Source of the DNA: Rossellomorea sp. AcN35-11
GTDB taxonomy: Bacteria > Bacillota > Bacilli > Bacillales > Bacillaceae_B
Assembly: GCA_030388825.1 (NCBI GenBank)
Contig: CP128836.1
Coordinates: 496,001 to 560,000, forward strand
Length of the DNA stretch: 64,000 nucleotides
Direction: 5' to 3'
Position numbers and translations under genes: made by a program. Shown in pieces: positions 10,201 through 53,848 of the stretch (positions are counted from its first letter, which is position 1; each line of letters begins with the position of its first letter). The notes beneath the pieces are model-generated. The model searched no databases. It had not been told where the DNA came from and saw only the letters and a list, made by a program, of their open reading frames with translations.

Positions 10201-13200
10201 TTTGTAATCCTTTCCTGCAACCAGACTATTTTCTTTGTATTGCCATTTGTCCTTTGTTCCACTATCAAATGTGGCAGATTTCTGTTCGGTTGTACCATCT
10301 GAATACATGAACCGAAATAACACATCGTAATTTCCGCCAGCATCACTCACCTCTAATGATTTTGAGAATCCACCCCAAGTCAGCTTATCCCCTTTGTTAC
10401 CCGCTATATCAATATCTTGTTGATAATAAGCGTTTCCGCCTTGCCCATGAAGAACAACCGACGTTTCACTTCCTTTACTACCTACAGATGTATCAAGTCC
10501 ATCATTAGCAGTTACATCAAGAGAAGGAACCCACCCATCCGGTGAACCGTCTTGGTTATGATCTGATTCAAAATCAAAATTTGTTACAAAATTATAGCTG
10601 TTAATTCGAGAAGCATCTTGTAATTGAAAGTTATCGAACCACGCATCACCCGTATTTAAAACAATATAAATCCTTACGAAATTTGCATTTTCCGGAACGG
10701 TCATTGAGGCCGTTTTCTTAGACCAATCAATATCTCTATTTGTATAACTTAATACATTTCGATCAAGTTCAGAGCTGTTTCTATCCTGAAACCAAAGAGC
10801 TCGCACTTCCATAGAACCTAAATTCGAAGACTTCTCAGCCCACGATAGATTTAATTTTGTTTTTGGCTTTACCTCCATGTATTCGGAAACTAGTAGAACA
10901 TCATCCGTACTTCCGTTCGATTGGAGTTTCATGCTGTATTTACCTTCTACACTGTCACTAGAGGCAGAAACAAGGCCAGTAGAAAGTACATCATGCTGCC
11001 AATGCAAAGGCATCCCGTTCGACCAGTCTTCCAGTCCGCTATTTCTGACCAGGTTATTCCCTAGACTAATAGGAACAGTAGAACTAACTAAATTACCATA
11101 TTCATCGTAGTCTTTCATGGAAGCGCTAGAAGAACCCGTGACCGAATCAGTATGATTGTCCTTTTCATCATAGAAGTTCCGATACACTTCTCCACCATAT
11201 CCCGTTACTTGAGTCACGTTGTTTCTTTCATCATAGGTGTAAGTTTTCCTGAATTGCTTTGGATTATTTACCTCTCGAACATTTCCTTCTTCTCCATAGT
11301 AAATCACTGTATTCTTCTGTTTTGGGTCAGTAATTTGAGATAAAAGGTTTTGTTGATCCCACTGATATTTCACAGTTAGGGGATTAGCATCAGAGATGTT
11401 TTCTTGAACCTCAAGCAAGTTACCTACATCATTTAAGATGTACCTTGTTTGAACCCCTTTTGAATCCGTTTTAATTACACTTGGGCTTCCATCCGCTTGC
11501 ACACCATACTCATACTCTGTCGTGATGGTTTGATTCACAAATTCATGTTTTTTCACAGACACATCATCAAACCAGGCAGTTCCTGTCCCTTGAGCCAAAC
11601 GAAGGTAAACATTAAGATTATCGTAATCTGCACCCATTACAAATTCCTTCTCACGGTAATGCCAGGAATCATCAGCACCATCGAAAGTAAGGACTTCCCA
11701 CTGTTTCGTTCCGTTTGTATCGATATATTCAAAGATTACTTGATAGCTTCCTGTTACATTACCATCCGACTTACTCCAACCAGATAAGGTGAAGCTATCT
11801 CCTTTTTGACCTGAAATATTATAATTTTGGCGCACCCAATTGTATTCGCTATCGTTATGAATTACTAGAGAACTCTTTCCAGTATGGGCTACCGTTGTGT
11901 CAATTCCATCTGAAGTTGATAACGTACTGGCTATTTCGAATTCATCAGGATACCCGTCTGAATCTCTATCTGATTCAAAGCTATTATTCTTCAATAGATT
12001 TTCTTCCGGGATTTTTTTCAGCGAGATATCATCAAACCAAGCCATCCCTTCTCCTTGAGCAAGACGAACGTACACGTTATAAGAATCATAGTCGCCCTTT
12101 GTTGTGAATGTTTTCTCTCGGTGATGCCATGTTGTATCCTTCCCATTAAAGAGCAGTTTCTCCCACTCCTTCGAACCGTCCGGTTTGATATATTCAAAAA
12201 TCACATCATAATTACCGGTCACAGTTCCATCAGACATACTCCAAGCGGATAATCTGAATTTATCTCCTGCATTGCCAGATTCATCGTATTCCTGTCGTAT
12301 CCAATTCAATTCACTGTCATTATGGATAACAAAGGAGCTTCCACCAGAGCGGGATTGAGTGGTATCCACCTTGTCTTGAGCAGATATTGTACTCGGCGCA
12401 TAAAAACCATCTGGTATTCCATCTTGATCTACGCCTTGTTCAAAACTCCCGTTCGTAATTAGGTTGTCCGTGTATAGTCTATTGACAGATAGACTATCAA
12501 ACCAAGCAGTTCCGGTTCCACTACCTAACCGCGCATACACATTGTAAGATACATAATCCGAGTTAGTCGTGAATGTTTTCTCTCTGTAATGCCACGATTG
12601 ATCAGTTCCATCAAAAGCAACCGTTTCCCAAACTACCGAACCGTCTGATTTAATATATTCAAAAATCACATCATACTTACCAGTGACATTCCCATCACTC
12701 TTACTCCATGCTGACAACTTAAATTCGTCGCCTTTTTTACCTGGAGAATCAAATTCTTTTCGAACCCAATTTATTTCACTGTCATTATGAATCACAAATG
12801 AATTTTCCCCTGCACGAGAAGTAGAAGTATCGATTTTATCTAAATCTGATATTGTGCTTGGTGCATTAAACCCATCCGGCATTCCATCTTGGTCTACATC
12901 TTCCTCAAACCCACCATTAACTACTACATTTTCTTGAATGACTTCTTGTTCTGAATCAAATTCAACGTTCTCTTGTGTAAATTTTTGAACCTTGCCATCA
13001 GTTGTATAAGAAATAACGGTTGCGTTTCCTTCTTCATCTGTAATACTTGTTAAATTATGATTTGAATCGTATCCATATTTAACAGATGTGAGAATATCTC
13101 CTGAACCATTCTCTTTCTTCACCTCAACCAGGTCACCATTCGCACCATAGATATAACGAACTGTAGTAACGTCCGTACCAACAATCTTAGTCAGATGCTT

Positions 13201-30160: not shown

Positions 30161-30967
30161 TTAACAACTTGTATCACAATCAGATTTTAAAAATGCCTCT
30201 TCCACCGTGTTCGCTGCTTTTTCTTGGATACCAGATGTAACATGAGAATAAATTCCTAATGTCACACTTACATTGTTATGGCCAAAACGCTCTTGAACAA
30301 CCTTAGGATTAACCCCTTCCTCTAAGAGGTGAGTGGCGTGTGTGTGTCTCAGAGAATGAAAAGTAATTTTAGGAAGAGCGGTTTTCTCTGTTATAGTATA
30401 ATATTCTCTTAATTTATTGTTAGGGTCAATAAAACCTCCAACTTGATTAGGGAAAACTATATCTTTATTAATACTATAGAATCCTAACTCTTCATGGAGG
30501 ATATCGTTTTTTTCTTTTTGTCTCTTCAGTGCTTCAACAACAAAAGGAGACAAAGCAATGTACCTTTTTGACATTTTGGTTTTAGGTTCTTTGATAACCA
30601 AACCCTTTTTTGGAAGATAAGCCAGTGTCTGCTTTATATATATTCTTCCCTTAAGCAGGTCCACATTTTTCCATTCCAAAGCAAGAAGTTCACCCTTCCT
30701 TGCCCCTGTAAACACAGCTGTAGTATAAAATTCTTCTTGTTTATATAGCTTTGCAGCCCTTAGGAATTCTTTAACCTGTGAATAATTCCATGTTTGAATG
30801 ATCTTATCCTGGATTCTTGGAACTGTAGCTCCTACTGCAGGGTTTCTATTTGTAAATTCCCACTTTATAGCTTGCTGTAAAGAGTTTTTTAAGAGGTTAT
30901 GTATCTCTTTAATGGTTTTGGGTGAGTACCCCTCATCATGCTTTTCGCTATAAAAGTCATCTATCAT
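30161..30967 (-). pseudogene. phage-type tyrosine integrase, N-terminally truncated
   Basis: The catalytic domain is complete: R90 (TGARKGELLAL), K129/K131 region (EPKTKMSKR), H204 and R207 (FHSLRHTHATHLL), H230 (RFGHNN) and Y240 (LGIYSH). Upstream of the first ATG the same frame continues for 29 codons (LLDNHIIPYFKDLTIKEITTF), the normal core-binding domain start, until an in-frame TAG at 31055-31057. The arm-binding domain and part of the core-binding domain are lost: 268 aa against ~370-390 in the family. It is most like Tn916/phage integrases. Probably the inactive trace of an integrated element; its partner genes are no longer adjacent. Confidence 0.8.
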
Positions 30968-42848: not shown

Positions 42849-43247
42849 CTATTTTAGAACGTCACTTTGTTCAGCGTATATCCAATCAGAATCATAATCT
42901 TCAATAGGTGGTATTTTTCCCAACTTCTCGACCGATTTTTTCACCATTTTTGAAAGGTGTTCATCGAAATCACTCATTTCTTCAATGAGTTTTTTTATTC
43001 CCTCGCCAACTTTCAAGAAATAAATCATTGACCCTTCTTTGGTCTCAGTGAGTGCGTGAACCTCTTCAGTCAACGGGAGATTGAGGACTCTCATTCCTGA
43101 AGTAACTTCAGAAATGTTAATTCCCGATTCCAAAGGAAGTGCACAGAACCTATAATCACCCACTCTTATTTCGTGACCGACTGTTGGCACCCATTCCGAA
43201 CCAGCAATATAAAAAGTTTGAGTTTGTTCGTTTACTGATATTTTCAC
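42849..43247 (-). CDS. small-array family A protein, copy 1, 132 aa
   Basis: Member of a three-gene family with the genes at 46365-46763 and 47542-47940. The product opens KISVNEQTQTFYIAGSEWVP and has RVGDYRFCALPLESGINISE in the middle and DYDSDWIYAEQSDVLK at the end. Beta-rich first half, helical second half. GTG start has GGAG 11 bases upstream. Function unknown. The family does not look like an enzyme and has no signal, so an intracellular regulatory or inhibitory role is as likely as any. Confidence 0.6.
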   Translation of the reverse strand: MKISVNEQTQTFYIAGSEWVPTVGHEIRVGDYRFCALPLESGINISEVTSGMRVLNLPLTEEVHALTETKEGSMIYFLKVGEGIKKLIEEMSDFDEHLSKMVKKSVEKLGKIPPIEDYDSDWIYAEQSDVLK

Positions 43248-43282: not shown

Positions 43283-43320
43283 CTCAAGAATCAATTAAAC
43301 TCTTTCGTTGGATAGTCCAT
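43283..43320 (-). repeat. intergenic repeat copy 1 of the small-gene array
   Basis: First recognised copy: plus strand CAAGAATCAATTAAACTC then TTTCGTTGGATAGTCCA. It sits between the 43320-43475 stop and the start of family A copy 1. Confidence 0.7.
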
Positions 43321-43475
43321 CATTGGAACTTAGCAATTATCTTCAATTCCTCTATATGTGCGTTCCAGTGTTGTTCTTGATACCCATTCATTAAGTCGCA
43401 CATATCTTCATTTACATTAATGACAATCCACCTACTTTTACGAAACTCAACAAAGTCTCCTATGTCAATTTTCAT
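43320..43475 (-). CDS. hypothetical protein, 51 aa
   Basis: ATG at 43475 follows AGAAGGAGTG. The product (KIDIGDFVEFRKSRWIVINV) starts as a small beta-barrel, then is helical. Stop lies in an intergenic repeat copy (43283-43320). Unrecognised. Confidence 0.5.
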   Translation of the reverse strand: MKIDIGDFVEFRKSRWIVINVNEDMCDLMNGYQEQHWNAHIEELKIIAKFQ

Positions 43476-43534
43476 AATTTCACTCCTTCTCTATATTGGT
43501 CAAGAAACTATTAAACTCTTTTGGTAATAGCTCT

Positions 43535-43762
43535 CTACCTGTCTAATGCTTTTGTAGCTATTAAACCTATTCTTTCGGGGTTTAAAGCCCAACTTTTATT
43601 GTCGTAATATACAGCTGTTTCATTTATTTCTTCTAATGCCTTTTGTAATTTTTCTACTGTTCCCACCACTTCTTTCATCGAATCTGTATCAAAGAGATAT
43701 CCATATTCCTCAGCCCGTTCTATTTCTTTTTTCCAAAACTCAATTTTTTCGTTTAGATCCAT
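43535..43762 (-). CDS. hypothetical coiled-coil protein, 75 aa
   Basis: Helical and acidic (NEKIEFWKKEIERAEEYG, VEKLQKALEEINETAVYY). ATG follows AGAGGTA. A degenerate repeat copy (43481-43530) lies just after it, ahead of the 43320-43475 gene. Unrecognised. Confidence 0.5.
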   Translation of the reverse strand: MDLNEKIEFWKKEIERAEEYGYLFDTDSMKEVVGTVEKLQKALEEINETAVYYDNKSWALNPERIGLIATKALDR

Positions 43763-43890
43763 TACCTCTCACTCCCTCGAAATATAAGTTAGGATTTATT
43801 TATGTCAGATAGTGCGGTATCTAAAAGATTTCCAATAAATCCACTCCTTAGTTATATAAGTCTTTAGTAAAATTGAATCTATTGGTCTTG

Positions 43891-44088
43891 TTACGACATG
43901 CGTTTTAGCAAAGTACTTGCAGACTTTTTTATCACTTCTATCCTTTCTTTTTCAGAAAGTTCTTCAAAAGCATCTGCAACTTCATTAGGGATACCCTCAA
44001 AAGAACCTTCTAACTCAATGATTGCTGATACAAACTCCATATTACTATTTGAAATCCAATCCACTACAATCCGTTGCATCTTTTTCAC
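43891..44088 (-). CDS. small-array family B protein, copy 1, 65 aa
   Basis: Close relative of the gene at 50342-50539: both open RIVV-D/E-WI-S/L-NSNME and end KKSA...LKRMS. Helical, acidic. GTG start follows AAGAAGGGACAG. Function unknown. Confidence 0.55.
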   Translation of the reverse strand: MKKMQRIVVDWISNSNMEFVSAIIELEGSFEGIPNEVADAFEELSEKERIEVIKKSASTLLKRMS

Positions 44089-44133
44089 TACTGTCCCTTC
44101 TTTCTGCGTACTTTCAGTAGGATAGAGAGTTGG

Positions 44134-44505
44134 TTATATTGGTAAAACGTCGATTTCTACTGGTTTTTCGTATGTCCAGTAACTACATATGGATTTGGAT
44201 TTAAATGTTTCGTCTAATATTGATTGGATTCTTTCGATAGCCCCTTTTTCCATTTCATCCATTGAAACAGAATAAAAATCCTCATATAAATCGCAAGACT
44301 CATTCTCTAAATAATTTTCAACCATCGTCCCTGCGTCAGGCTCCCAACGCCTTTTTTTGATTGTATACCAATTGTTTGAAAGATGACTTTCTTCACCCAT
44401 CTCAATGATCTCCTTTTTTAACTCAGCGACCGTATATACAGTATGCGAATCTTCAACAGCTACCTCAACATCATCTTCTAACTCTGAAAGTTTTAATTTG
44501 TCCAT
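44134..44505 (-). CDS. hypothetical phage-like protein, 123 aa
   Basis: Soluble. Contains EDSHTVYTVAELKKEI near residue 20, WYTIKKRRWEPDAG, and the acidic end EKPVEIDVLPI. This style is common in Bacillus phage early genes. ATG follows AAAGGAGAATTT. No family recognised. Confidence 0.55.
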   Translation of the reverse strand: MDKLKLSELEDDVEVAVEDSHTVYTVAELKKEIIEMGEESHLSNNWYTIKKRRWEPDAGTMVENYLENESCDLYEDFYSVSMDEMEKGAIERIQSILDETFKSKSICSYWTYEKPVEIDVLPI

Positions 44506-44551
44506 TTAAAAATTCTCCTTTGCTTTGTGACCCATTTTTACCGATTAACTA

Positions 44552-44865
44552 CTAACCTATAACTATGCCAAACAATTCTTTCTGCATTCTTTTCTCTTTA
44601 GACCATAACACGTCTCTTTCTTTTCCCAATCTTTGAATTTTTGCGAGACACTCTATATCCTTAGTTTCGTTATACTTGTGGGCTAATTCTGTACACTCGT
44701 TTAATATTTTTTCAATCTTATTGTTTATTTCTTTATACCGTTCCCACATAATAATCTTATTAATAGGTTCTACATGTTGAGGAATATAAGATTGAATTTG
44801 TTTTATGTAAAAAATCAATTCTTTCTTTGTGTATTGTTGAAATTCCTGTTCTGAAAAAGTAATCG
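44552..44865 (-). CDS. hypothetical helical protein, possible ATT start, 104 aa
   Basis: The best start is ATT at 44865, eight bases after GGAGG, giving (M)TFSEQEFQQYTKKELIFYIK. The next candidate start, TTG at 44818, has no ribosome site and would drop a well-formed N-terminal helix. The product is helical with several coiled-coil-like heptads (KIEKILNECTELAHKYNE). ATT starts are rare (infC is the classical case). Function unknown. Confidence 0.45.
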
Positions 44866-44931
44866 TAATATCCTCCTCTTCCGAACTCCATTTTTTCTAT
44901 AAACTACTAATCTAGATGATCCGATAGTTCA

Positions 44932-45237
44932 TTAATAAATACAGGAGACTGCTATAAATGGCTTTCCATCCCATTGCATATCCACAATTTCTCTGACAGT
45001 AATCATGTCAGGATCGCCTTCACTTTTTCTTACTTTGTGTTCCGGCGAAACAACCTCGACATCTTCGTAATCATAAAGCTCTTCATCCGATAAACCAGTA
45101 AAGTTTTTATACCACTCTCTTGCTTCATCTTGCGTATATGCTGCTACTGCATCACTTTCGCAAAGTTGAAAAACATGAACATCCTGCAACCCTTTTTCTT
45201 GTGAAACCTGAACCTCGCCTAATTTTGACTCTTCCAT
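44932..45237 (-). CDS. hypothetical protein, 101 aa
   Basis: Acidic, soluble; contains TQDEAREWYKNFTGLSDEEL and MITVREIVDMQWDGKPFIAV. ATG follows CGGGGGATGG. The pattern resembles small phage early proteins. Unrecognised. Confidence 0.5.
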   Translation of the reverse strand: MEESKLGEVQVSQEKGLQDVHVFQLCESDAVAAYTQDEAREWYKNFTGLSDEELYDYEDVEVVSPEHKVRKSEGDPDMITVREIVDMQWDGKPFIAVSCIY

Positions 45238-45286
45238 TATCCATCCCCCGTTTCTATATACATTACTGTCTTTTCTTTTTCATCGA

Positions 45287-45526
45287 TCAAACTGATTTTC
45301 TTCTTCCTTCCAGGGCATCGTAGCTGTCTACCTGACCTGAGAGATATAAATCCTGTAAAATGTCGAGTAACTGGCTTATTGTTATATGTCCTAATCCATC
45401 CTCTTCATGTTGCATGAGCTGTTTTATATGAATTGAATTTCTAATATGATCTTCGAGGCCACCACCAATTTTATTCACGTAAATTTGTTTATTAATCAAA
45501 TCTTGTCGTTTCTGAGGATCCTTCAT
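45287..45526 (-). CDS. hypothetical protein, 79 aa
   Basis: Helical, acidic (SQLLDILQDLYLSGQVDSYD). ATG at 45526 overlaps the stop of the preceding frame. Ribosome site AGGGGG upstream. Unrecognised. Confidence 0.5.
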   Translation of the reverse strand: MKDPQKRQDLINKQIYVNKIGGGLEDHIRNSIHIKQLMQHEEDGLGHITISQLLDILQDLYLSGQVDSYDALEGRRKSV

Positions 45527-45634
45527 GTTATTGCCCCCTTATAACAATTTTGACATTCATTACAGATGCATTGTGCACTCCAATAATCAGCAGCTGGGTT
45601 AAACTCCTTAAAATCTTCCCACCTTTTTACTCAT
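45523..45634 (-). pseudogene. frameshifted small cysteine-rich gene
   Basis: Starts ATG at 45634 (GAAGGATGATGTAGT upstream). One frame gives MSKKVGRF and a stop; a one-base shift near the start gives RWEDFKEFNPAADYWS then CICNECQNCYKGAIT, with three cysteine pairs, to TGA 45523-45525. Length 112 nt is not a multiple of three, which supports a one-base change. Decay or sequencing error. Confidence 0.4.
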
Positions 45635-45665
45635 ACTACATCATCCTTCGATATTGCCCTTTATG

Positions 45666-45703
45666 AGTCAAGAGGCTCTTAAACTCATTCGTCGAACTGC
45701 GAC
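45666..45703 (-). repeat. intergenic repeat copy of the small-gene array
   Basis: Plus strand AGTCAAGAGGCTCTTAAAC then TCATTCGTCGAACTGCGAC. Contains the AAGAGGCTCTT palindrome seen in several copies. Confidence 0.8.
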
Positions 45704-45704
45704 A

Positions 45705-45901
45705 CTATTTTAATTTCGGATTACTGATTACACTGTTGAAAAACTCACTAGTCACTTCTGCATTGGGTACAGCAAATTCATTTTCCTCAAACTCTGAATC
45801 GTTTTCAATTTCAACAACGTCAACAATCGCTCCTATATTGTTGTAGTGAACCTGATACTTATAGCATCCTTACCACAAATGTACAATTGTCTGATTTTCA
45901 A
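45705..45901 (-). pseudogene. frameshifted acidic small gene
   Basis: TTG at 45901 starts LKIRQLYICGKD, which stops, while a one-base shift gives CYKYQVHYNNIGAIVDVVE and an acidic tail (EFEENEFAVPNAEVTSEF) to TAG at 45705-45707. Length is not a multiple of three. Same family style as neighbours; decayed or a homopolymer error. Confidence 0.4.
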
Positions 45902-45907
45902 TAAAAC

Positions 45908-45960
45908 CACTCCTTCGTTTTATAGGTCAAGAACCTATTAAACTCTTTCGTCGGACTATG
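45908..45960 (-). repeat. intergenic repeat copy of the small-gene array
   Basis: Plus strand TCCTTCGTTTTATAGGTCAA, then GAACCTATTAAACTCTTTCG and TCGGACTATG. A full-length copy including the ribosome site of the next gene on the minus strand. Confidence 0.8.
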
Positions 45961-46096
45961 CAATAATTTCTTCTATCTCTTTTATCCTGTTCTTCACCCA
46001 ATTTAGTTCTTCAAATACTAAAATGTCTTTCCCCCATTTTAAGTGTTCTTGTAATTTTTCCCTTTCCACTTGCAGTTCTTCAATTGTTTTCACCAT
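45956..46096 (-). CDS. small coiled-coil peptide, 46 aa
   Basis: ATG at 46096 with AAGGAGTG seven bases upstream. Almost entirely a charged amphipathic helix (VKTIEELQVEREKLQEHLK then NRIKEIEEIIA). Likely a small regulator or a partner-binding peptide. Function unknown. Confidence 0.5.
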   Translation of the reverse strand: MVKTIEELQVEREKLQEHLKWGKDILVFEELNWVKNRIKEIEEIIA

Positions 46097-46100
46097 TGTC

Positions 46101-46154
46101 ACTCCTTCGCTATATTGGTCAAGAGGCTCTTAAACTCTTTCGTCGAATAGTTCA
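46101..46154 (-). repeat. intergenic repeat copy of the small-gene array
   Basis: Plus strand ACTCCTTCGCTATATTGGTC, then AAGAGGCTCTTAAACTCTTT and CGTCGAATAGTTCA. On the coding strand it begins at the stop codon of one gene (TGAAC...) and ends in the GAAGGAGTG ribosome site of the next. Confidence 0.85.
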
Positions 46155-46298
46155 TTGCTTATGGTTTTTGAAATACTCAAAAGTCTCTTTTAGGAACGAT
46201 AGCTTTAATGACTTCTGATTACCTACATCGACTATTCCTATGGCTTTTCTTCGATTGAACTCTTTCAAAAGTTCTTCACGTTTTTCTGATGGTTTCAC
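46152..46298 (-). CDS. hypothetical peptide, 48 aa
   Basis: GTG at 46298 with GGAGTG just upstream. Product KPSEKREELLKEFNRRKAIG then KETFEYFKNHKQ. Helical and basic/acidic mixed. Stop codon lies in the repeat (TGAAC). Unrecognised. Confidence 0.5.
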   Translation of the reverse strand: MKPSEKREELLKEFNRRKAIGIVDVGNQKSLKLSFLKETFEYFKNHKQ

Positions 46299-46303
46299 AA
46301 AAT

Positions 46304-46360
46304 CACTCCTTCGCTACATTGGTCAAGAGGCTCTTAAACTCTTTCGTCGGATTGTTCATT
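46304..46360 (-). repeat. intergenic repeat copy of the small-gene array
   Basis: Plus strand ACTCCTTCGCTACATTGGTC, then AAGAGGCTCTTAAACTCTTT and CGTCGGATTGTTCATTTAATC. Its left end is shared with the copy at 47476-47537, where the 460-bp duplicated block begins. Confidence 0.85.
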
Positions 46361-46364
46361 TAAT

Positions 46365-46763
46365 CTAATTTAAAATGTCGCTTTGTTCAGCGAATATCCA
46401 ATCGGAATCATAGTCTTCAATTGGTGGCATTTCTCCCAATCTTTCGACCGATGTTTTCACCATTTCTGAAAGGTGTTTATCGAAGTCCTTCATTCCTTCA
46501 ATGAGTCTTTTTATTCGCTCGCCAACTTTTAAGAAATAAATCATTGATCCTTCTTTGGTCTCGGTGATTGTGTGAACCTCTTCAGACATCGGCAGCTTGA
46601 GTACTCTCATTCCAGAAGTGACTTCAGAAATGTTAATTCCCGATTCTAAAGGAAGAGCACAGAATCTATAATCACCTACTCTTATTTCATGACCTACTGT
46701 AGGCACCCATTCCAAGCAAGCAAGGTAAAAAGTTTGAGTTTGTTCATTTACTGATATTTTCAT
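46365..46763 (-). CDS. small-array family A protein, copy 2, 132 aa
   Basis: Same family as 42849-43247 and almost identical to 47542-47940. Over the 460-bp block 46334-46793 I find only three base differences from copy 3, all in the coding part and all changing an amino acid (S/N, T/I and T/A). The start ATG at 46763 follows GGAGTGCAAATG. The very low divergence means a recent copy event. Function unknown. Confidence 0.6.
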   Translation of the reverse strand: MKISVNEQTQTFYLACLEWVPTVGHEIRVGDYRFCALPLESGINISEVTSGMRVLKLPMSEEVHTITETKEGSMIYFLKVGERIKRLIEGMKDFDKHLSEMVKTSVERLGEMPPIEDYDSDWIFAEQSDILN

Positions 46764-46807
46764 CATTTGCACTCCTTTCTTATTGCGCCACATGTGTCTT
46801 GCGATTA

Positions 46808-47002
46808 TTAATCGATTCTGTTTATTCGAATACTTTTGATTACTTCTTTCGGAACGTCTGCATCTTGCGTTAATAGTTTTTCCATCTGCTCGTGCATGTG
46901 ATAATTAAATGTTTTATTTTGAACTTCGAGTAATTCATCAACTTCTTTCGTATCTTCATCTTTAAATGGAATTTCTAATTCAATCGTTACGAATGCTTTC
47001 AT
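46808..47002 (-). CDS. hypothetical protein, 64 aa
   Basis: Starts MKAFVTIELEIPFKDED, a beta-then-helix pattern, and ends IKSIRINRID. ATG follows AAAGGAGATGGAGAA. Helical middle (YHMHEQMEKLLTQDA). Resembles small antitoxin-like proteins only in size. Unrecognised. Confidence 0.5.
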   Translation of the reverse strand: MKAFVTIELEIPFKDEDTKEVDELLEVQNKTFNYHMHEQMEKLLTQDADVPKEVIKSIRINRID

Positions 47003-47010
47003 TTCTCCAT

Positions 47011-47070
47011 CTCCTTTAGTGCATAATTTTGGTCAAGAGGCTCTTAAACTCTTTCGTCGAAAAGTTCATT
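47011..47070 (-). repeat. intergenic repeat copy of the small-gene array
   Basis: Plus strand CTCCTTTAGTGCATAATTTT, then GGTCAAGAGGCTCTTAAACTC and TTTCGTCGAAAAGTTCA. Confidence 0.8.
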
Positions 47071-47167
47071 AACCATTCTTAAATTTTCTACACCTAAGAC
47101 ATTGGTAATCTCCTAAATGACCTTTATAACACCAACGATGACCGATGAATATACATAACCATTTCAT
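47069..47167 (-). CDS. DUF1660-like small cysteine/histidine protein, 32 aa
   Basis: Starts KWLCIFIGHRWCYKG and ends CLRCRKFKNG. The LC...GH.W ... CxxC pattern is that of the DUF1660 phage peptides, probably a single-zinc fold. ATG at 47167 with GGAG upstream. Function unknown. Confidence 0.5.
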   Translation of the reverse strand: MKWLCIFIGHRWCYKGHLGDYQCLRCRKFKNG

Positions 47168-47174
47168 TTATCTA

Positions 47175-47230
47175 ACTCCTTCGCTATATTGGTCAAGAAC
47201 CTATTAAACTCTTACATCGGAATGTTCATC
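47175..47230 (-). repeat. intergenic repeat copy of the small-gene array
   Basis: Plus strand ACTCCTTCGCTATATTGGTC, then AAGAACCTATTAAACTCTTA and CATCGGAATGTTCATC. Confidence 0.8.
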
Positions 47231-47468
47231 AATCAAGTTTCATAAAATGTTCTGATAAAGTATCTTCGTGTATTTCAATCCATCTGCCATGATTGTCATT
47301 TGTAATTTGAATTAATCGGATACTTTCTTTGCCGGCAATCATTTTATAGGAGTCCTCATCTACTTCCCATCCTGTGCTTGTCGGGATTGTCATAGTATCT
47401 CCTGTACGATAACCATCTTCATCGTAATGCTCTAACTCTAACGGTTTAATACATTCATATTTTCTCAC
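47229..47468 (-). CDS. hypothetical protein, 79 aa
   Basis: Starts RKYECIKPLELEHYDEDGYR, then TGDTMTIPTSTGWEV and IHEDTLSEHFMKLD. A beta-rich fold of a kind common in Bacillus phage early genes. GTG start with AAAGGAGAA upstream. Unrecognised. Confidence 0.5.
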   Translation of the reverse strand: MRKYECIKPLELEHYDEDGYRTGDTMTIPTSTGWEVDEDSYKMIAGKESIRLIQITNDNHGRWIEIHEDTLSEHFMKLD

Positions 47469-47475
47469 GTTTTTT

Positions 47476-47537
47476 CTCCTTTCTACTGCTCAATTTATGT
47501 CGAGAATCTATTAAACTCTTTCGTCGGATTGTTCATT
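47476..47537 (-). repeat. intergenic repeat copy of the small-gene array
   Basis: Plus strand CTCCTTTCTACTGCTCAATT, then TATGTCGAGAATCTATTAAAC and TCTTTCGTCGGATTGTTCA. Its right part matches the copy at 46304-46360, consistent with the duplicated 460-bp block. Confidence 0.8.
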
Positions 47538-47541
47538 TAAT

Positions 47542-47940
47542 CTAATTTAAAATGTCGTTTTGTTCAGCGAATATCCAATCGGAATCATAGTCTTCAATTG
47601 GTGGCATTTCTCCCAATCTTTCGACCGATATTTTCACCATTTCTGAAAGGTGTTTATCGAAGTCCTTCATTCCTTCAATGAGTCTTTTTATTCGCTCGCC
47701 AACTTTTAAGAAATAAATCATTGATCCTTCTTTGGTCTCGGTGATTGCGTGAACCTCTTCAGACATCGGCAGCTTGAGTACTCTCATTCCAGAAGTGACT
47801 TCAGAAATGTTAATTCCCGATTCTAAAGGAAGAGCACAGAATCTATAATCACCTACTCTTATTTCATGACCTACTGTAGGCACCCATTCCAAGCAAGCAA
47901 GGTAAAAAGTTTGAGTTTGTTCATTTACTGATATTTTCAT
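47542..47940 (-). CDS. small-array family A protein, copy 3, 132 aa
   Basis: Twin of 46365-46763 (three base changes, all amino-acid changing), 1,177 bp away, with the same ribosome site and upstream 30 bases. The duplicated block runs from the middle of one intergenic repeat to just upstream of the gene start. The genes between the copies are not duplicated, so this was not a simple tandem duplication. Confidence 0.6.
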   Translation of the reverse strand: MKISVNEQTQTFYLACLEWVPTVGHEIRVGDYRFCALPLESGINISEVTSGMRVLKLPMSEEVHAITETKEGSMIYFLKVGERIKRLIEGMKDFDKHLSEMVKISVERLGEMPPIEDYDSDWIFAEQNDILN

Positions 47941-47946
47941 CATTTG

Positions 47947-48010
47947 CACTCCTTTCTTATTGCGCCACATTTGTCGAGAATCTATTAAACTCTTTCTTCG
48001 AAATGTTCAA
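47947..48010 (-). repeat. intergenic repeat copy of the small-gene array
   Basis: Plus strand CTCCTTTCTTATTGCGCCAC, then ATTTGTCGAGAATCTATTAAA and CTCTTTCTTCGAAATGTTCA. Confidence 0.75.
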
Positions 48011-48234
48011 TAAACCTCTTCCACTTCATCCATTTCAAATAATCTTTTATTACAGTCCAAACAATAGGCATACTTACTCTCTTTGTGGTTTAAATGTGCA
48101 TACAATTCTGTATTATCTGCCTCTGAACCATCATAATGATAGCGTTGAACTGAGCTTCCAGTTACTTGTATCTTCGAATAAAAACCACTGGCAGATTGAC
48201 AATGAGGGCATTCTTCAATTGGAGCTTTGTACAT
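48007..48234 (-). CDS. zinc-ribbon protein, 75 aa
   Basis: Two cysteine pairs, CPHCQS near the start and CLDCNKRL near the end, form a zinc ribbon. The middle (KIQVTGSSVQRYHYDGSEAD) is polar. ATG follows GAAAGGAGAT. Phage proteins of this type usually bind nucleic acid or a polymerase. Exact role unknown. Confidence 0.6.
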   Translation of the reverse strand: MYKAPIEECPHCQSASGFYSKIQVTGSSVQRYHYDGSEADNTELYAHLNHKESKYAYCLDCNKRLFEMDEVEEVY

Positions 48235-48241
48235 TTTTTAA

Positions 48242-48303
48242 TCTCCTTTCTTGTTGCGTATTCTGGGTCAAGAATCTATTAACTCCTTCTTCGTATAGTT
48301 CAG
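48242..48303 (-). repeat. intergenic repeat copy of the small-gene array
   Basis: Plus strand CTCCTTTCTTGTTGCGTATT, then CTGGGTCAAGAATCTATTAAC and TCCTTCTTCGTATAGTTCA. Confidence 0.75.
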
Positions 48304-48307
48304 CAAA

Positions 48308-48469
48308 TTACCCTTTTATTACTTTAAGTAATTTAGTATTTTTATAACCCTTTTTCAACATATCGTACATAGTTAAAGCAACTTGGTCATTGTCGGTTTC
48401 CTGTTGTTGTATTCCGTTTTCGTTTTCCCATTGGACAATATATACATTTTTATGCTTGACGGTTTCCAA
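48308..48469 (-). CDS. hypothetical protein, 53 aa
   Basis: TTG at 48469 has AAGGAG eight to nine bases upstream; an in-frame ATG just before it overlaps the ribosome site. Product ETVKHKNVYIVQWENENGIQ then MYDMLKKGYKNTKLLKVIKG. Small beta-then-helix protein. Unrecognised. Confidence 0.45.
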   Translation of the reverse strand: METVKHKNVYIVQWENENGIQQQETDNDQVALTMYDMLKKGYKNTKLLKVIKG

Positions 48470-48478
48470 AAAAAGCAT

Positions 48479-48540
48479 CTCCTTTTTGTTGCACTTTATG
48501 TATCAAGGATCTATTAAACTCTTACGTCGAACTATTCAGT
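48479..48540 (-). repeat. intergenic repeat copy of the small-gene array
   Basis: Plus strand CTCCTTTTTGTTGCACTTTA, then TGTATCAAGGATCTATTAAAC and TCTTACGTCGAACTATTCA. Confidence 0.75.
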
Positions 48541-48701
48541 AATTGGTTTACAACTTTGACATATTCTAATGTTATAGGGGGTTTCTCCTTTAAAAGCTGA
48601 ATCAAAAAGGTAAGTGTACTTAGAATACTTCTCTATAAGGTTTCGGCAATAATCACAGGTGTATTCTCTCCTTGAACAACCACTTTAACTACATTACTCA
48701 A
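48532..48701 (-). pseudogene. frameshifted zinc-ribbon-like gene
   Basis: One frame starts TTG (48701) with VKVVVQGEN and stops. A +2 shift gives RREYTCDYCRNLIEKYS, then FDSAFKGETPYNIRI and CQSCKPITE to TAG at 48532-48534, with CxxC pairs. The frame with the cysteines has no start codon. Length is not a multiple of three. Decay or sequencing error. Confidence 0.35.
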
Positions 48702-48714
48702 GTTTGTTCCTATT

Positions 48715-48864
48715 TTATTTCTCAATCTTTTCTCTCAATCTCTGTATGCTTTCCATTGTTTCTTCATCAGGGGATATAGAGACAAAGTACATTTCAATCA
48801 ATTCATCAATCATCTTTTTATTGTCAGATGTAAGATAGACATTTCCACCTTTATAAGCGCCCAC
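48715..48864 (-). CDS. small-array family C protein, copy 1, 49 aa
   Basis: GTG at 48864 has GGAGG upstream. Product GAYKGGNVYLTSDNKKMIDE, then SPDEETMESIQRLREKIEK. Same layout as the gene at 50913-51050 (VYL, acidic middle, helix ending E-K-x-x-K). Function unknown. Confidence 0.45.
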   Translation of the reverse strand: MGAYKGGNVYLTSDNKKMIDELIEMYFVSISPDEETMESIQRLREKIEK

Positions 48865-48870
48865 TCAAAG

Positions 48871-48925
48871 ACCTCCTTCCTGCACCACATTTGTCAATTC
48901 AGCATACTGTTGTCGAACTGGGACA
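48871..48925 (-). repeat. degenerate intergenic repeat copy
   Basis: Plus strand CTCCTTCCTGCACCACATTT and GTTGTCGAACTGGGACAC remain; the central GGTCAAGA...TTAAACTC part is lost. Confidence 0.5.
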
Positions 48926-48927
48926 CA

Positions 48928-49197
48928 CTATTCTTTTTTTAATGCCATTTTTAACGCTTCTAACATTGAATCAATTCCCCAACCTCTAAAGTCTATTGCT
49001 GTTTTAATCCCCTTAGTTAATCGAACGTTTTCCTTTTCAAGTGAATCAACCTTTTGAGCCTGTTCCAGCAACCATTGATAATGGTTTGGTTGGATTTCAT
49101 AAGAAATCGTCTTGTCTGTCATTCCATCTAATATAGGTTCAGAAGAATTCATAACCTCTCTGATTTTTCCCTTAGTTTCACTCTCGTTATATGGCAT
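48928..49197 (-). CDS. hypothetical protein, 89 aa
   Basis: Contains PNHYQWLLEQAQKVDSLEKE, a helix with coiled-coil character, and the end SMLEALKMALKKE. ATG follows AAAGGAGGAATTATAA. A related style to the gene at 51606-51917 (xYxWLxEQ). Unrecognised. Confidence 0.5.
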   Translation of the reverse strand: MPYNESETKGKIREVMNSSEPILDGMTDKTISYEIQPNHYQWLLEQAQKVDSLEKENVRLTKGIKTAIDFRGWGIDSMLEALKMALKKE

Positions 49198-49205
49198 TTA
49201 TAATT

Positions 49206-49261
49206 CCTCCTTTAATTGCACTCCATTGGTCAAGAATTTATTAGACTCATTCGTAGGTTTG
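49206..49261 (-). repeat. intergenic repeat copy of the small-gene array
   Basis: Plus strand CTCCTTTAATTGCACTCCAT, then TGGTCAAGAATTTATTAGAC and TCATTCGTAGG. Confidence 0.7.
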
Positions 49262-49265
49262 AGTA

Positions 49266-49421
49266 TTAGGACTTAATTAAACCAACTAATCTTTCATCAC
49301 TAACTTTATGAGCAATACCCACACTTCCATATTTATCATAAATATCGAAACCACCACTTTTATTGCTTTTGTATCGCTTTCCAACTACTTTTGCTAATGC
49401 TCTTTTCCTTAATGACTTCAA
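49266..49421 (-). CDS. basic small protein, 51 aa
   Basis: TTG at 49421 with GAGGGG upstream. Product KSLRKRALAKVVGKRYKSNK then GFDIYDKYGSVGIAHKVSDE and RLVGLIKS. Basic N-terminus suggests nucleic-acid binding. Unrecognised. Confidence 0.4.
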   Translation of the reverse strand: MKSLRKRALAKVVGKRYKSNKSGGFDIYDKYGSVGIAHKVSDERLVGLIKS

Positions 49422-49430
49422 TTATACCCC

Positions 49431-49490
49431 TCTTTTTTTGCGTATCTTTGGTCAAGAATCTATAAACCTCTTTCGCCGGATTGTTCAGTA
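49431..49490 (-). repeat. intergenic repeat copy of the small-gene array
   Basis: Plus strand TCTTTTTTTGCGTATCTTTG, then GTCAAGAATCTATAAACCTC and TTTCGCCGGATTGTTCA. Confidence 0.75.
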
Positions 49491-49492
49491 AA

Positions 49493-50278
49493 TCATTCGT
49501 CATCTTCATCAAATAAGAAGTATTTTTCCTCTACTTCGAGTGCTTCAATATCGCCTAAGTCAATAACTGTCATTTCTACACTTCTTAGAATAAAGTGGTC
49601 ATCATCTTCTTTATTTGTTCTTCTTAAAAGATTGTTAAACGACCATATCCTTGCGCTTGGAAATGCTTTTTTTATCATTACTTCAAGTAGATTTCGGTTA
49701 TTGTCATTGTCAATCAGGTCTAATCCGTACCCTCGTCTTTTTGGAGTAAATGTAAATCCTTGCTCCATTAAGTATTCGACCTTTGTTTTCAATTTTTCTT
49801 TGTCAGACGAAGGAGTTTTAGAGTACCTCGATGTGAAAGAATCAATCATGAAGCCTAACTCCAATTTCGCAATGCCACCAGCAGTGATTGACCTTTCTTT
49901 GATGAAGTTAAACCCTTCAACGTCCCACCATTTATCTATTTTCTTAAAGGCTAGTTCTACATTTGCTGCTATGCTGCTAATGGATTGCTGACTTTCTAAT
50001 GCCTTTTCTAAGTCATTTATTTGTTTTTGATAATATTGACCGATTGATTCAGTCATTTCCTTTTCACGTTCACTTTCTTTCCCAGTAAATCCAATCGTTT
50101 CTTTTACAGTATTCATATAATTATCAACTAACTTTGGTAGGGTTTCTTTCATGTCTTCACTTAGAGAATCATCCTTTACCCATTCAAGCAACGTAGCCAT
50201 AGAACTATAGGCTTGTTTTATTTCACGCTCAACTACCTCTTTTTGATCTTGATTAAAATTCAACTTTGGATTTCCCAC
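49493..50278 (-). CDS. hypothetical protein, 261 aa
   Basis: Largest gene in the small-gene array. Helical N-terminal half (LEKALESQQSISSIAANVEL), then a region with KTPSSDKEKLKTKVEYLMEQ, RRGYGLDLIDNDNNRNLLEV and an acidic end (FLFDEDDE). GTG start follows GGAGG. No family is recognised. The acidic tail and helical build recall phage host-takeover proteins, a guess only. Confidence 0.5.
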   Translation of the reverse strand: MGNPKLNFNQDQKEVVEREIKQAYSSMATLLEWVKDDSLSEDMKETLPKLVDNYMNTVKETIGFTGKESEREKEMTESIGQYYQKQINDLEKALESQQSISSIAANVELAFKKIDKWWDVEGFNFIKERSITAGGIAKLELGFMIDSFTSRYSKTPSSDKEKLKTKVEYLMEQGFTFTPKRRGYGLDLIDNDNNRNLLEVMIKKAFPSARIWSFNNLLRRTNKEDDDHFILRSVEMTVIDLGDIEALEVEEKYFLFDEDDE

Positions 50279-50285
50279 TCAAAAA

Positions 50286-50349
50286 CCTCCTCTTCTTTTG
50301 TTACTGCGTTACATTGGTCAATATTAAACTCTTACGTCGTACTACGACA
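50286..50349 (-). repeat. intergenic repeat copy of the small-gene array
   Basis: Plus strand CTCCTCTTCTTTTGTTACTG, then GGTCAATATTAAACTCTTAC and GTCGTACTACGAC. A shortened copy. Confidence 0.65.
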
Positions 50350-50539
50350 TACGCTTTAAATATAAGTGTGCAGATTTTTTAATCACTTCTACTGTTTCTT
50401 TTTCGGTAAGTTCTTCAAAAGCATATGCAACTTCATCAGGTATACTCTCAAAGGAACCTTCCAACTCAATGATTGCTGCTAAATACTCCATATTACTGTT
50501 TAAAATCCATTCCACTACAATTCGTTGATTCTTTTTCAT
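50342..50539 (-). CDS. small-array family B protein, copy 2, 65 aa
   Basis: Paralogue of 43891-44088. Product opens KKNQRIVVEWILNSNMEYLA and ends EVIKKSAHLYLKRMS. ATG follows AAGTAGGG. The two copies lie about 6.4 kb apart at opposite ends of the array. Function unknown. Confidence 0.55.
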   Translation of the reverse strand: MKKNQRIVVEWILNSNMEYLAAIIELEGSFESIPDEVAYAFEELTEKETVEVIKKSAHLYLKRMS

Positions 50540-50554
50540 TACTATCCCTACTTT

Positions 50555-50610
50555 CTTCCTGCACAGTATTGGTCAAGGATCTATTAAACTCTTTCGCCTA
50601 TAGTGCATTA
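50555..50610 (-). repeat. intergenic repeat copy of the small-gene array
   Basis: Plus strand TCTTCCTGCACAGTATTGGT, then CAAGGATCTATTAAACTCTT and TCGCCTATAGTGCA. Confidence 0.75.
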
Positions 50611-50847
50611 TTTGGAATCGTTTAAATAAAGTTCAATTTCACTTGCTACAATTAGAGACCCCTCACCACTCAACTCATAAATCCCATAATAATTAGGATA
50701 AAAACCACTATCAATGATTCTCCTTATATTGCATTTTGTACCCCGTATCAACCATTCCAAGTGGTCTCTCTTCTCTTGTCTAATATTTATCAGAATCAGA
50801 AGAACAACCCTATCAGCAACTTTAATGAGTTGAAAGTTTGGCTCCAT
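50608..50847 (-). CDS. hypothetical protein, 79 aa
   Basis: Starts NFQLIKVADRVVLLILINI, then RDHLEWLIRGTKCNIRRII and YPNYYGIYELSGEGSLIVAS. An alpha/beta fold. ATG with AAGGAG about 12 bases upstream. Unrecognised. Confidence 0.45.
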   Translation of the reverse strand: MEPNFQLIKVADRVVLLILINIRQEKRDHLEWLIRGTKCNIRRIIDSGFYPNYYGIYELSGEGSLIVASEIELYLNDSK

Positions 50848-50858
50848 TTATTCAAGCA

Positions 50859-50914
50859 ACTCCTTCGCTATATTTGTAGAGAATCTATTAAACTCTTTCG
50901 TGGGGTAGTTCATT
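50859..50914 (-). repeat. intergenic repeat copy of the small-gene array
   Basis: Plus strand ACTCCTTCGCTATATTTGTA, then GAGAATCTATTAAACTCTTT and CGTGGGGTAGTTCA. Confidence 0.75.
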
Positions 50915-51050
50915 ACTTAGATAGCTTTTCAAGCATTTTGTAATACCAATCACAGTCTTCTTCTGACAAATCTCCACTATCCAATTCATTGCGAAGCAAC
51001 GCATAAAGCCTTTCTGCGTCTTTATCAGCAAGATAAACCTGTTTACCCAT
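50913..51050 (-). CDS. small-array family C protein, copy 2, 45 aa
   Basis: ATG at 51050 with GGAGGT upstream. Product GKQVYLADKDAERLYALLRN then SGDLSEEDCDWYYKMLEKL. Related in layout to 48715-48864. Helical after a short strand. Function unknown. Confidence 0.5.
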   Translation of the reverse strand: MGKQVYLADKDAERLYALLRNELDSGDLSEEDCDWYYKMLEKLSK

Positions 51051-51057
51051 AAGAATA

Positions 51058-51120
51058 CCTCCTTTTACTGCACTACATTGGTCAAGAACCTATTAAACTC
51101 TTTCATCGAAATATACAGCA
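51058..51120 (-). repeat. intergenic repeat copy of the small-gene array
   Basis: Plus strand CTCCTTTTACTGCACTACAT, then TGGTCAAGAACCTATTAAAC and TCTTTCATCGAAATATACA. Last clear copy; a trace may persist near 51580-51600. Confidence 0.75.
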
Positions 51121-52876: not shown

Positions 52877-53848
52877 CTAATCATCACTTTTAAATACATC
52901 TATATTCATTTCATCCATCACTTTTTGTTTAGCGGCATCCGTAACATGAGTATATCTTTGGGTGGTATTTAAATTTGAATGCCCTAACAACTCCTGAACA
53001 GTTCTAATATCATATCCTTGTTGAAGCAACATAGTGGCAAAGGTATGACGAAGCTTATGACTGGATATGTTCCGATCTTTTAGCTGTTCATGTTCCGTTT
53101 GCTCATTCAGTGCCTTACGGATATTCTCTGTGATTCTTTGGATCCTCCTCTTGGATAACCTCTTTCCGAATCTACTTAAAAACAGAGCATCTTCATGCCC
53201 TTTCATCGGGTATTCTCTATGGTTCTCAATGTAGTCATTGATAACTTGATACAAGTCTTTAGGTAGTGGAATATACCTTGTTTTATTACCTTTACCTTTT
53301 ACAGACAACCCTTTTTGACCATGGTTAATGCTTGATTTATTCAGTGAGTGAACCTCTTCAACCCTCAGACCGCAGTATGTCATTAAGCCCAAGATCACTT
53401 TATTTCTTTTCACGTACATCTTCTTGCTCACTTTTGCGATTTGGGAGAAAAACACCCCTAATTCACTTTTCTCCAAATAGGAAGGTAAAGAGTTTCTTTC
53501 CTCTTTGGCCCTTTCAATTCCTTCAACCGGATTTGAGCTCACTACCTCGTATTCAATCAAACATTTATAAAAAGCTCGAACGGCCATTAATTTATAATTT
53601 CTTGTGCCGGGACCATTCCCCAATTTATTCTTCAAGTAATTCAAATACAAATTAATTTCTAATTTACGAACATCCTGGAGCGGTACAGGTTCAGAAACCT
53701 TATTGATCCGATTGATAAATTCTAAGAAAGAAGAAACATGACTTAAATAATTTTTGATTGTGTGCTGGGAGTAATCTTTATTGTCCATATGCGTTTCAAA
53801 AACGAGCAATTCGTCATTATAGCAACGTTTTATCTCCTCTTTTTGCAA
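52877..53848 (-). CDS. XerC/XerD-like tyrosine recombinase, 323 aa
   Basis: Site-specific tyrosine recombinase. N-terminal core-binding domain (about 15-110), catalytic domain (125-310) with R162 (GLRVEEVHSL), K186 (KGKGNK), H264 and R267 (SSHKLRHTFATML), H290 (LLGHSN) and Y299 (RYTHV). Length fits XerC/XerD and mobile-element recombinases. TTG start follows AAAGGGG. No accompanying attachment repeat was recognised. It stands at the upstream border of the small-gene array and so could be its mobiliser, an untested idea. Confidence 0.85.
   Translation of the reverse strand: MQKEEIKRCYNDELLVFETHMDNKDYSQHTIKNYLSHVSSFLEFINRINKVSEPVPLQDVRKLEINLYLNYLKNKLGNGPGTRNYKLMAVRAFYKCLIEYEVVSSNPVEGIERAKEERNSLPSYLEKSELGVFFSQIAKVSKKMYVKRNKVILGLMTYCGLRVEEVHSLNKSSINHGQKGLSVKGKGNKTRYIPLPKDLYQVINDYIENHREYPMKGHEDALFLSRFGKRLSKRRIQRITENIRKALNEQTEHEQLKDRNISSHKLRHTFATMLLQQGYDIRTVQELLGHSNLNTTQRYTHVTDAAKQKVMDEMNIDVFKSDD

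Follow-up and report, generated by a model that had tools for sequence, protein, structure and literature searches.

Shared joints suggest that small phage-type genes in two rows are swapped singly together with their own flanking sequences

Introduction

In a 64,000-nucleotide stretch of the Rossellomorea sp. AcN35-11 genome (hereafter the window, whose positions are used throughout), a row of small genes carries one repeated intergenic element of about 50 bp. What is this repeat for: is it a joint at which single genes come and go, or a signal that acts on the genes beside it? The sequence-only reading of this DNA had favoured a cassette array. Our analysis suggests that this row and a second one consist of small phage-type genes, each bearing its own short flanking sequences, which are swapped in and out one at a time at the joints.

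Results

Architecture and copies of the element

We constructed a profile, R1, from the sequence only and obtained 18 matches between 43284 and 51117 (E 2.8e-6 to 1.8e-15), all on the minus (coding) strand, in agreement with the sequence-only reading of about 18 same-orientation copies from 43.3 to 51.1 kb; 15 of these 18 matches were also in the training set. A second array (array 2) with 19 copies, again all on the coding strand, lies in two blocks at C2:333,306-349,340, on the same 628-kb contig (C2), a probable megaplasmid. R1 and the Mantel test described below drew on 32 copies out of 39 (30 from C2, which has 37, and two from Bacillus sp. RO3), leaving out the window copies that start at 50304, 48254 and 43284 and the C2 copies at 333478, 336208, 337901 and 347818. 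Repetition within array 1 was also evident from its self-similar 30-mer pairs, which numbered 268 against 0, 1 and 1 in three shuffles.

Each copy consists of a left half (TGAACAATCCGACGAA) directly after a stop codon, a core (AAGAGTTTAATAGATTCTT or a variant) and a right half (GACCAATATAGYGMAR) ahead of a ribosome site; the right half begins at GAC and extends into the ribosome site. Across both arrays, 30 of 37 copies start within -20 to +10 nt of an upstream stop codon that ends an ORF of at least 30 aa, and in 28 of 37 a Shine-Dalgarno-like site, with a reading frame of at least 28 codons, follows 23-55 nt past the GAC. Most copies therefore have the span proposed earlier, from stop codon through core to ribosome site. 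On the minus strand of the window, copies 1 to 3 occupy 51068..51117, 50863..50915 and 50559..50610, followed by copy 4 at 50304..50350, which has a short core and was outside the training set, copies 5 to 7 at 49438..49490, 49216..49268 and 48489..48541, and copy 8 at 48254..48304, likewise outside the training set. Copies 9 (47960..48012) and 10 (47486..47537, core TAGATTCTC) precede copy 11 at 47179..47230, and copies 12 and 13 (47020..47071 and 46309..46360) share the core GAGCCTCTT. Copies 14 to 16 lie at 46105..46156, 45913..45965 (followed by a frame that appears broken by eye) and 45654..45702, copy 17 at 43486..43523, and copy 18, a left half plus core outside the training set, at 43284..43321.

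The repeat is real, but its earlier description as lying between the genes does not extend to every gene pair: no full copy occurs from 43.53 to 45.65 kb, a part of about 2.1 kb with six minus-strand ORFs, and the joints near 46.8 and 48.9 kb hold half or degenerate copies. The latter spans 48879..48950 on the minus strand, with a clear right half at about 48879-48896 (score 21.1) and the remainder recognised by eye.

Twenty columns of the element are conserved at 90% or more, and conservation peaks at the end of the left half, in the core and at GAC, not beside the ribosome site. This pattern bears on a start-associated translation signal, in which the right half would help initiation and the left half would be accessory. 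Such signals are described for cluster K mycobacteriophages, where a 13-bp SAS (GGGATAGGAGCCC) stands at starts of non-structural genes and about half of the copies have an extended upstream part with 17-bp inverted repeats (ESAS), whose sites stay with gene families in the account that PMC3203893 gives of them. The element resembles SAS/ESAS in having one main orientation at the starts of small non-structural phage genes and in its tie to gene families, as far as that account goes (PMC3203893), and its right half adjoins the ribosome site; its consensus, however, is unrelated, its arms do not pair, and it begins at the stop of the preceding gene. With peak conservation away from the ribosome site, and with the stop-side half the better kept one in the phage Perkons (below), we consider this explanation very improbable.

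One-strand, intergenic, asymmetric and position-specific conservation is also what a pure control site would show, that is, an operator for a repressor, or a stoperator, acting between genes to silence transcription or halt it, with shuffling left to ordinary phage mosaicism independent of the element. Stoperators of cluster A mycobacteriophages are 13 bp long, act with a known repressor and, in the passages of PMC3029335 and PMC6550527 that describe them, are asymmetric, mostly intergenic, present in many copies mainly in one orientation, and phage-specific in sequence. Orientation and place match here, since every copy of either array (18 of 18 and 19 of 19) lies on the coding strand; moreover, different replicons have different cores at an unchanged position, which operators could also show. 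Unlike the 13-bp sites so described, the element comprises two half-sites and a core with unit borders inside it, and its roughly 50 bp and its placement from stop to ribosome site exceed what a 13-bp operator needs; no linked repressor gene was noticed in analyses directed at other questions. The SPbeta repeated element (SPBRE), an intergenic repeat of a Bacillus phage, is another parallel: in the portion of PMC10516654 devoted to it, a 15-bp motif in the promoter regions of ten named genes is bound by MrpR, a protein with a tyrosine-recombinase fold. The present element differs: its 37 copies stand between genes, and promoter-like sites are not enriched in array 1, where sigma-70 type sites from 42.8 to 52.2 kb number 24 against 33.5 +- 5.2 in shuffles. 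Sigma-70 promoters and terminators were both below chance in that array and were rejected, and a leader peptide from the TTG of TTGACC was rejected by eye, as second codon positions vary and third positions are more fixed. Since the halves of one gene, P, stay with that gene and breaks fall within the element, we regard a purely regulatory site as possible but doubtful.

Borders of gene P

Two strains of the same species have between them five copies of gene P, three in the window and two in RO3 (C21 and C30). Copy 2 (46365..46763, minus strand, phrog_5780) is 98% identical to copy 1 of the same family (47542..47940, minus), and copy 3 (42849..43247, minus) is 84% identical to the query copy and lacks the GAC right half. 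Together with another gene pair whose proteins are 75% identical and frames that look broken near 48.6 and 45.8 kb, these copies account for the near-identical, diverged and broken paralogues noted earlier.

Four P copies stand in four contexts and share their 5' border to the base: in 6 of 6 pairs, identity of 89-100% gives way to 28-47% precisely at GAC. On the 3' side homology extends across the left half and ends within the core. All four retain TGAACMATCYGACGA, after which the two RO3 copies diverge immediately, and the two window copies part only after GAGTTTAA. The break at GAC and the 3' homology through the left half define a unit of right half, gene and left half, so that a joint is divided into about 38 + 18 nt between adjoining units. 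Comparison with the other copies places the copy 1 unit at 47521..47975 (minus), with element copy 9 as its upstream joint, and the copy 2 unit at 46344..46798 (minus), which has no upstream left half. A second gene, MKNEL, behaves similarly: in two contexts its homology starts at TCGACCC, with none before. A fixed border, such as exchange of single genes would leave, is seen at four P copies and at MKNEL; P copy 3, which has a different leader, and three other gene groups (MNDPQ, MNDHL and the 50.4/44.0-kb pair) show no common border at GAC. The intergenic space upstream of GAC is just 6-9 nt in three P contexts, so borders that look sharp could come from compact packing alone.

In integron cassette arrays, units of one gene each point the same way and have a joint in common. 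The arrays studied here have these properties too, and a dedicated site-specific system, in which circles of one gene each would be cut out and inserted at the core by a tyrosine recombinase, would account for the exact GAC border in four contexts. Matching joints at P also fit it, both reading GAATCGAC in RO3 C21 and both reading TAGATTCTCGACA at window copy 1; the cores on the two sides of copy 2 and of the RO3 C30 copy are unlike, which speaks against it. A candidate enzyme is encoded 1.8 kb upstream of array 1 on the same strand (52877..53848, minus; Pfam PF00589, Phage_integrase), with R, HxxR and Y seen by eye. The opening 20 kb of RO3 C21 contain only remote kin of it (24%, E 1e-9), and RO3 C30, the phage Perkons and 40 kb around array 2 contain none at E <= 1e-3. 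No tyrosine recombinase lies near array 2, and none was seen travelling with the element.

Nor do the arms pair as in the folded attC sites of integrons. Within copies, pairing scored 173 against 179 +- 6 in shuffles, and 435 of 500 shuffles were equal or better (41 typed copies, with the right arm mis-cut in at least six and absent from Pk75349). No arm covariation was found and RNAalifold gave no fold (energy 0); a hairpin, cruciform or RNA fold was rejected on these results. Equal core alleles at neighbouring joints were not in excess over chance. With neither pairing nor core sharing, and with no linked integrase common to both arrays, an integron-like cassette system is not upheld, and we judge a dedicated site-specific system quite improbable.

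In a Mantel test on 32 copies the left half and the right half varied independently of each other (r 0.066, p 0.26), which favours separate units. This independence may also reflect old divergence: the two parts of the core are likewise uncorrelated (r 0.077), and the right part of the core and the right half are borderline (r 0.124, p 0.067). It is unlikely, in our estimate, that the arrays represent a non-integron form of gene capture in Bacillota phages and plasmids, with two different half-sites per gene, single units moving perhaps as core-closed circles, and the core sequence determining which replicons can exchange.

Distribution, RO3 and Perkons

A profile search, as the earlier reading had proposed, yielded the second array; no array was found outside the species in the sampled Bacilli genomes. 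Under stricter filters, R1 found arrays among 397 genomes of the order in the own genome alone, with one or two weak matches each (E above 1e-4) in 32 others, and among 398 class genomes only the own genome matched at E <= 5e-4. Three stretches of a genome contigs collection matched, of which one, RO3, is real. Phage and plasmid collections gave no useful match to the element, and Rfam gave none at gathering thresholds. In viral contigs the exact core pattern had 0 matches, and the left-half pattern matched at 12 loci, where no left-right pair was seen and which were judged chance by their flanks. Large arrays came up in one strain only, which counts against our preferred explanation.

RO3 contains two prophage-like early regions that have the order of P, MNDHL and MKNEL in common and differ in the genes between, and P is flanked there by the same halves as in the window. 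These regions, together with P at the same 5' base in four contexts, support the proposal that single genes are gained, duplicated and lost at the joints.

In Perkons, a temperate Psychrobacillus phage, left halves stand at stops around a P homologue, with different cores. At 11 bits, 5 of 7 left-half matches coincide with annotated stops (p 6e-7), and four of these surround the P homologue; other cut-offs were weaker (5 of 14, p 5e-5, at 10 bits; 3 of 5, p 3e-4, at 12 bits and identically at 13). This test was post hoc, the halves having already been spotted by eye, and covered the gene-bearing strand of the first 84.4 kb. Right halves alone were not significant (p 0.08-0.34), and the best left-right pair (21.4 bits) does not surpass a lone match in a C2 flank (21.9 bits). 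It is the left half, at the stop, that is better kept. Gene g22 in the element-free part of the array (44134..44505, minus; phrog_17088) is a homologue of Perkons ORF155, which comes after P in that phage; P and g22 are members of phage families. No g22 was found in the viral contigs, and a PADLOC search with ten array proteins returned none at E <= 0.01.

Discussion

We propose, at a probability of about one half, that the arrays are made of accessory gene units of phage type, which recombination over short homologies shuffles at a conserved expression signal. Each unit would bring its own 5' leader (the right half, from GAC to the ribosome site) as well as a 3' tail of its own (the left half), and end-to-end joining of two units would create the composite 50-bp element. 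Recombination within the core and the short homology beside it would add, copy and remove units, most likely through general or phage-encoded annealing recombination rather than a dedicated enzyme. The halves may be kept for gene expression, as leader, transcript end or transcription control; if so, that would keep the joints alike and thereby usable as recombination points. An expression role appears likely on comparative grounds, because left halves stand at stops in an unrelated phage too.

Closest in proposed way of working are the short boundary sequences between lambdoid phage modules that Clark et al. in 2001 reportedly put forward as foci of homologous recombination. As there, homology at P and MKNEL starts or ends at a short conserved intergenic sequence at the gene border; the present case differs in its long arrays on a probable megaplasmid, its bipartite element and its one-base borders in several contexts. 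The boundary-sequence idea is itself cited within the stoperator literature (in a passage of PMC3029335).

How small phage genes travel singly among phages, prophages and plasmids has long been asked. In the present case one gene, P, has borders resolved to a single base in two strains of the same species, and a portion of the signal is also present in a phage from a different genus, which makes the mechanism open to testing with this gene and a single joint.

A repeated element joins small genes in two arrays

The small genes on the minus strand between 43.28 and 51.12 kb of the window are separated by one repeated element, for which alignment of 32 copies gave the consensus TAnTGAACAATnCGACGAAAGAGTTTAATAGATTCTTGACCAATATAGnGCAGn. 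In this joint of about 50 bp, a left half follows the stop codon, a core lies in the centre, and a right half leads from GAC into the ribosome site; conservation across the aligned copies peaks from AAAGAG through TTTAA, AG, CT and GAC. The sequence-only reading had counted about 18 copies in one orientation, and our sequence-only profile model (R1) likewise recovered 18 in this array (array 1), plus 19 in a second array (array 2), which lies on the same contig (C2; 628,214 bases) at 333.3-349.3 kb. Each of the 37 copies is on the coding strand of its array, and the remaining four R1 matches in the genome are weak (E 0.15-0.54). Array 1 also holds some half copies and an element-free stretch (43.53-45.65 kb). 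The source genome comprises 4.8 Mb in two contigs, with the window at C2:496001-560000, and C2 is therefore probably a megaplasmid.

The proposal that the element spans the interval from a stop codon to the next ribosome site held for most copies: 30 of 37 start between -20 and +10 nt from the stop codon of a preceding ORF (at least 30 aa), and in 28 of 37 a Shine-Dalgarno-like site and a frame of at least 28 codons come 23-55 nt past GAC. Beyond the source genome, R1 matched Bacillus sp. RO3, a strain of the same species, with two good copies that both lie on contig C30 and three weak matches (E 0.13-0.43). It revealed no further array in 397 genomes of the order and, at E <= 5e-4, matched only the source genome among 398 genomes of the class, both sets being samples of larger groups.

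Other features were observed on C2. A second repeated intergenic element (about 90-160 bp, copies 73-76% alike) occurs around array 2 at C2:323.3, 341.5 and 351.1 kb (L009:1339-1424, L009:19480-19638 and L010:9052-9200 in our extracted loci) and by eye contains terminator-like hairpins and T runs. Directly upstream of array 2 lies an HNH endonuclease gene (Pfam PF01844; L009:10588-10950), preceded by a left-half-like TGAACAATCCGACGAA that leads directly into its ribosome site. The window also contains a 2622-aa frame with YD-type repeats (7243-15111), WapA/RHS-like by eye.

Unit borders of gene P

Gene P (family phrog_5780) is present in five copies in the window and RO3. Four of them share 89-100% identity over the 18 nt starting at GAC and only 28-47% across the preceding 40 nt (6/6 pairs each; 25-50% over the nearest 12 nt), whereas the fifth, at 43.2 kb, has a different leader. 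On the 3' side, TGAACMATCYGACGA is kept in the same four. The likeness of the two near-identical window copies (47542-47940, copy 1; 46365-46763, copy 2) extends to GAGTTTAA and then diverges into TAGATTCTCGAC versus GAGCCTCTTGAC; in RO3, TGAACMATCYGACGA is followed by CATAGCTTAATAGATTTTTGAC on C30, and GATTCCGAATCGAC replaces the usual core on contig C21. For the small gene MKNEL, which stands at an end of each RO3 contig, homology begins at TCGACCC, with none before it. No such shared border was found for MNDPQ, MNDHL or the 50.4/44.0-kb pair.

The left half is absent at joints at 46.8 kb of the window, at C2:335.66 kb and upstream of P on both RO3 contigs. There, by eye, a core-like stretch encloses the stop codon of the upstream gene (TAA-TAG in TTTAATAG), and the core looks as if it had been added onto the end of that gene.

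Putative working of the joints

These observations fit units in which a gene stands between a right half and a left half, with the core joining one unit to the next, and such a joint could serve general recombination or a phage annealing protein. A dedicated site-specific enzyme could also use it: the same core, TAGATTCTCGACA, stands at both joints of P copy 1, as does GAATCGAC at both joints of P on C21, but P copy 2 and the C30 copy do not fit this equal-core pattern, the arms of the element do not pair, and likeness between cores at neighbouring joints does not exceed chance. Moreover, array 2 lacks a counterpart of the recombinase at 52877-53848, and C21 carries only distant relatives of it. 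C2 as a whole has five tyrosine recombinase matches, at C2:406215, 497555, 526236, 548937 and 582328, with only 548937 near an array.

Left halves were also sought in Perkons, a temperate siphophage of Psychrobacillus (PMC8951557), which carries a P homologue (40% identity) and, after it, a homologue of the window gene at 44134-44505. A scan of its first 84.4 kb, on the strand that bears the genes, gave seven matches at a cut-off of 11 bits, five of which (75038, 75349, 76199, 76560 and 21249) map between -3 and +12 nt relative to an annotated stop, against a share of 3.1% expected by chance (p 6e-7); the counts were 5/14 at 10 bits (p 5e-5) and 3/5 at 12 bits (p 3e-4). The evidence for right halves, at 74835 and 75067, is no more than suggestive (p 0.08-0.34). 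At 75038 and, by eye, 21249, left and right halves are joined through different cores, although the pair at 75038 scores 21.4 bits, not above the 21.9 bits of one match in a C2 flank. Should the Perkons sites prove related, the core of this megaplasmid would be younger than the halves. The halves are placed at stop codons and ribosome sites, and in an unrelated phage too the left half lies at stops; we therefore think that they probably act in expression as well. Array 1 shows no excess of promoter-like or terminator-like sites.

Among known kinds, the boundary sequences of mosaic phages come closest in likely way of working, and SAS/ESAS and stoperators in appearance; the element differs from SAS/ESAS, SPBRE and integron attC in sequence, structure or place. 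No description of it was found in the portions of the literature that our searches returned.

Gene content between the joints

Of ten array proteins compared with PHROG, six fall into its families (including phrog_5780 and phrog_17088), most of them without an assigned function, and a PADLOC comparison of ten proteins, nine of them the same, gave no match; we infer that the array genes are phage accessory genes. The two RO3 loci resemble the early regions of prophages. On C21, regulator-like frames follow an integrase frame that is 33% identical to the window recombinase at 30161; small genes come next and then a gene for a recombination-type ATPase, some of these labels, read from the sequence, being tentative.

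Among 36 genomes of the genus, gene P (E <= 0.001) is confined to the source genome and RO3. Around its relatives in phage 268TH008, plasmid pSH-B74, a Pontibacillus megaplasmid, the IMG/VR locus L062 and short loci L068-L070, there was no array-like excess of self-similar pairs. The homologue at L062:3348-3746 (58%), also found on contig C13 of genome G388, carries an in-frame TAA; both contigs are 11736 long with the gene in the same place, and they may be one sequence.

The end of C30 and the start of C21 carry the same 135-bp start of MKNEL, likely an assembly break at a repeated unit. The gene order is P, MSGINT, MNDPQ, MNDHL, MKNEL on C30 and P, MGKSADMK, MNDHL, about 5.7 kb of other genes and, at the contig end, MKNEL on C21. 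Shared units thus keep their order while the intervening genes differ, in line with the suspected gain and loss of genes between joints. The window has three P copies and one MNDPQ homologue, and an MNDHL homologue lies next to array 2. From this order and placement we conclude that single genes were gained and lost while the joints stayed.
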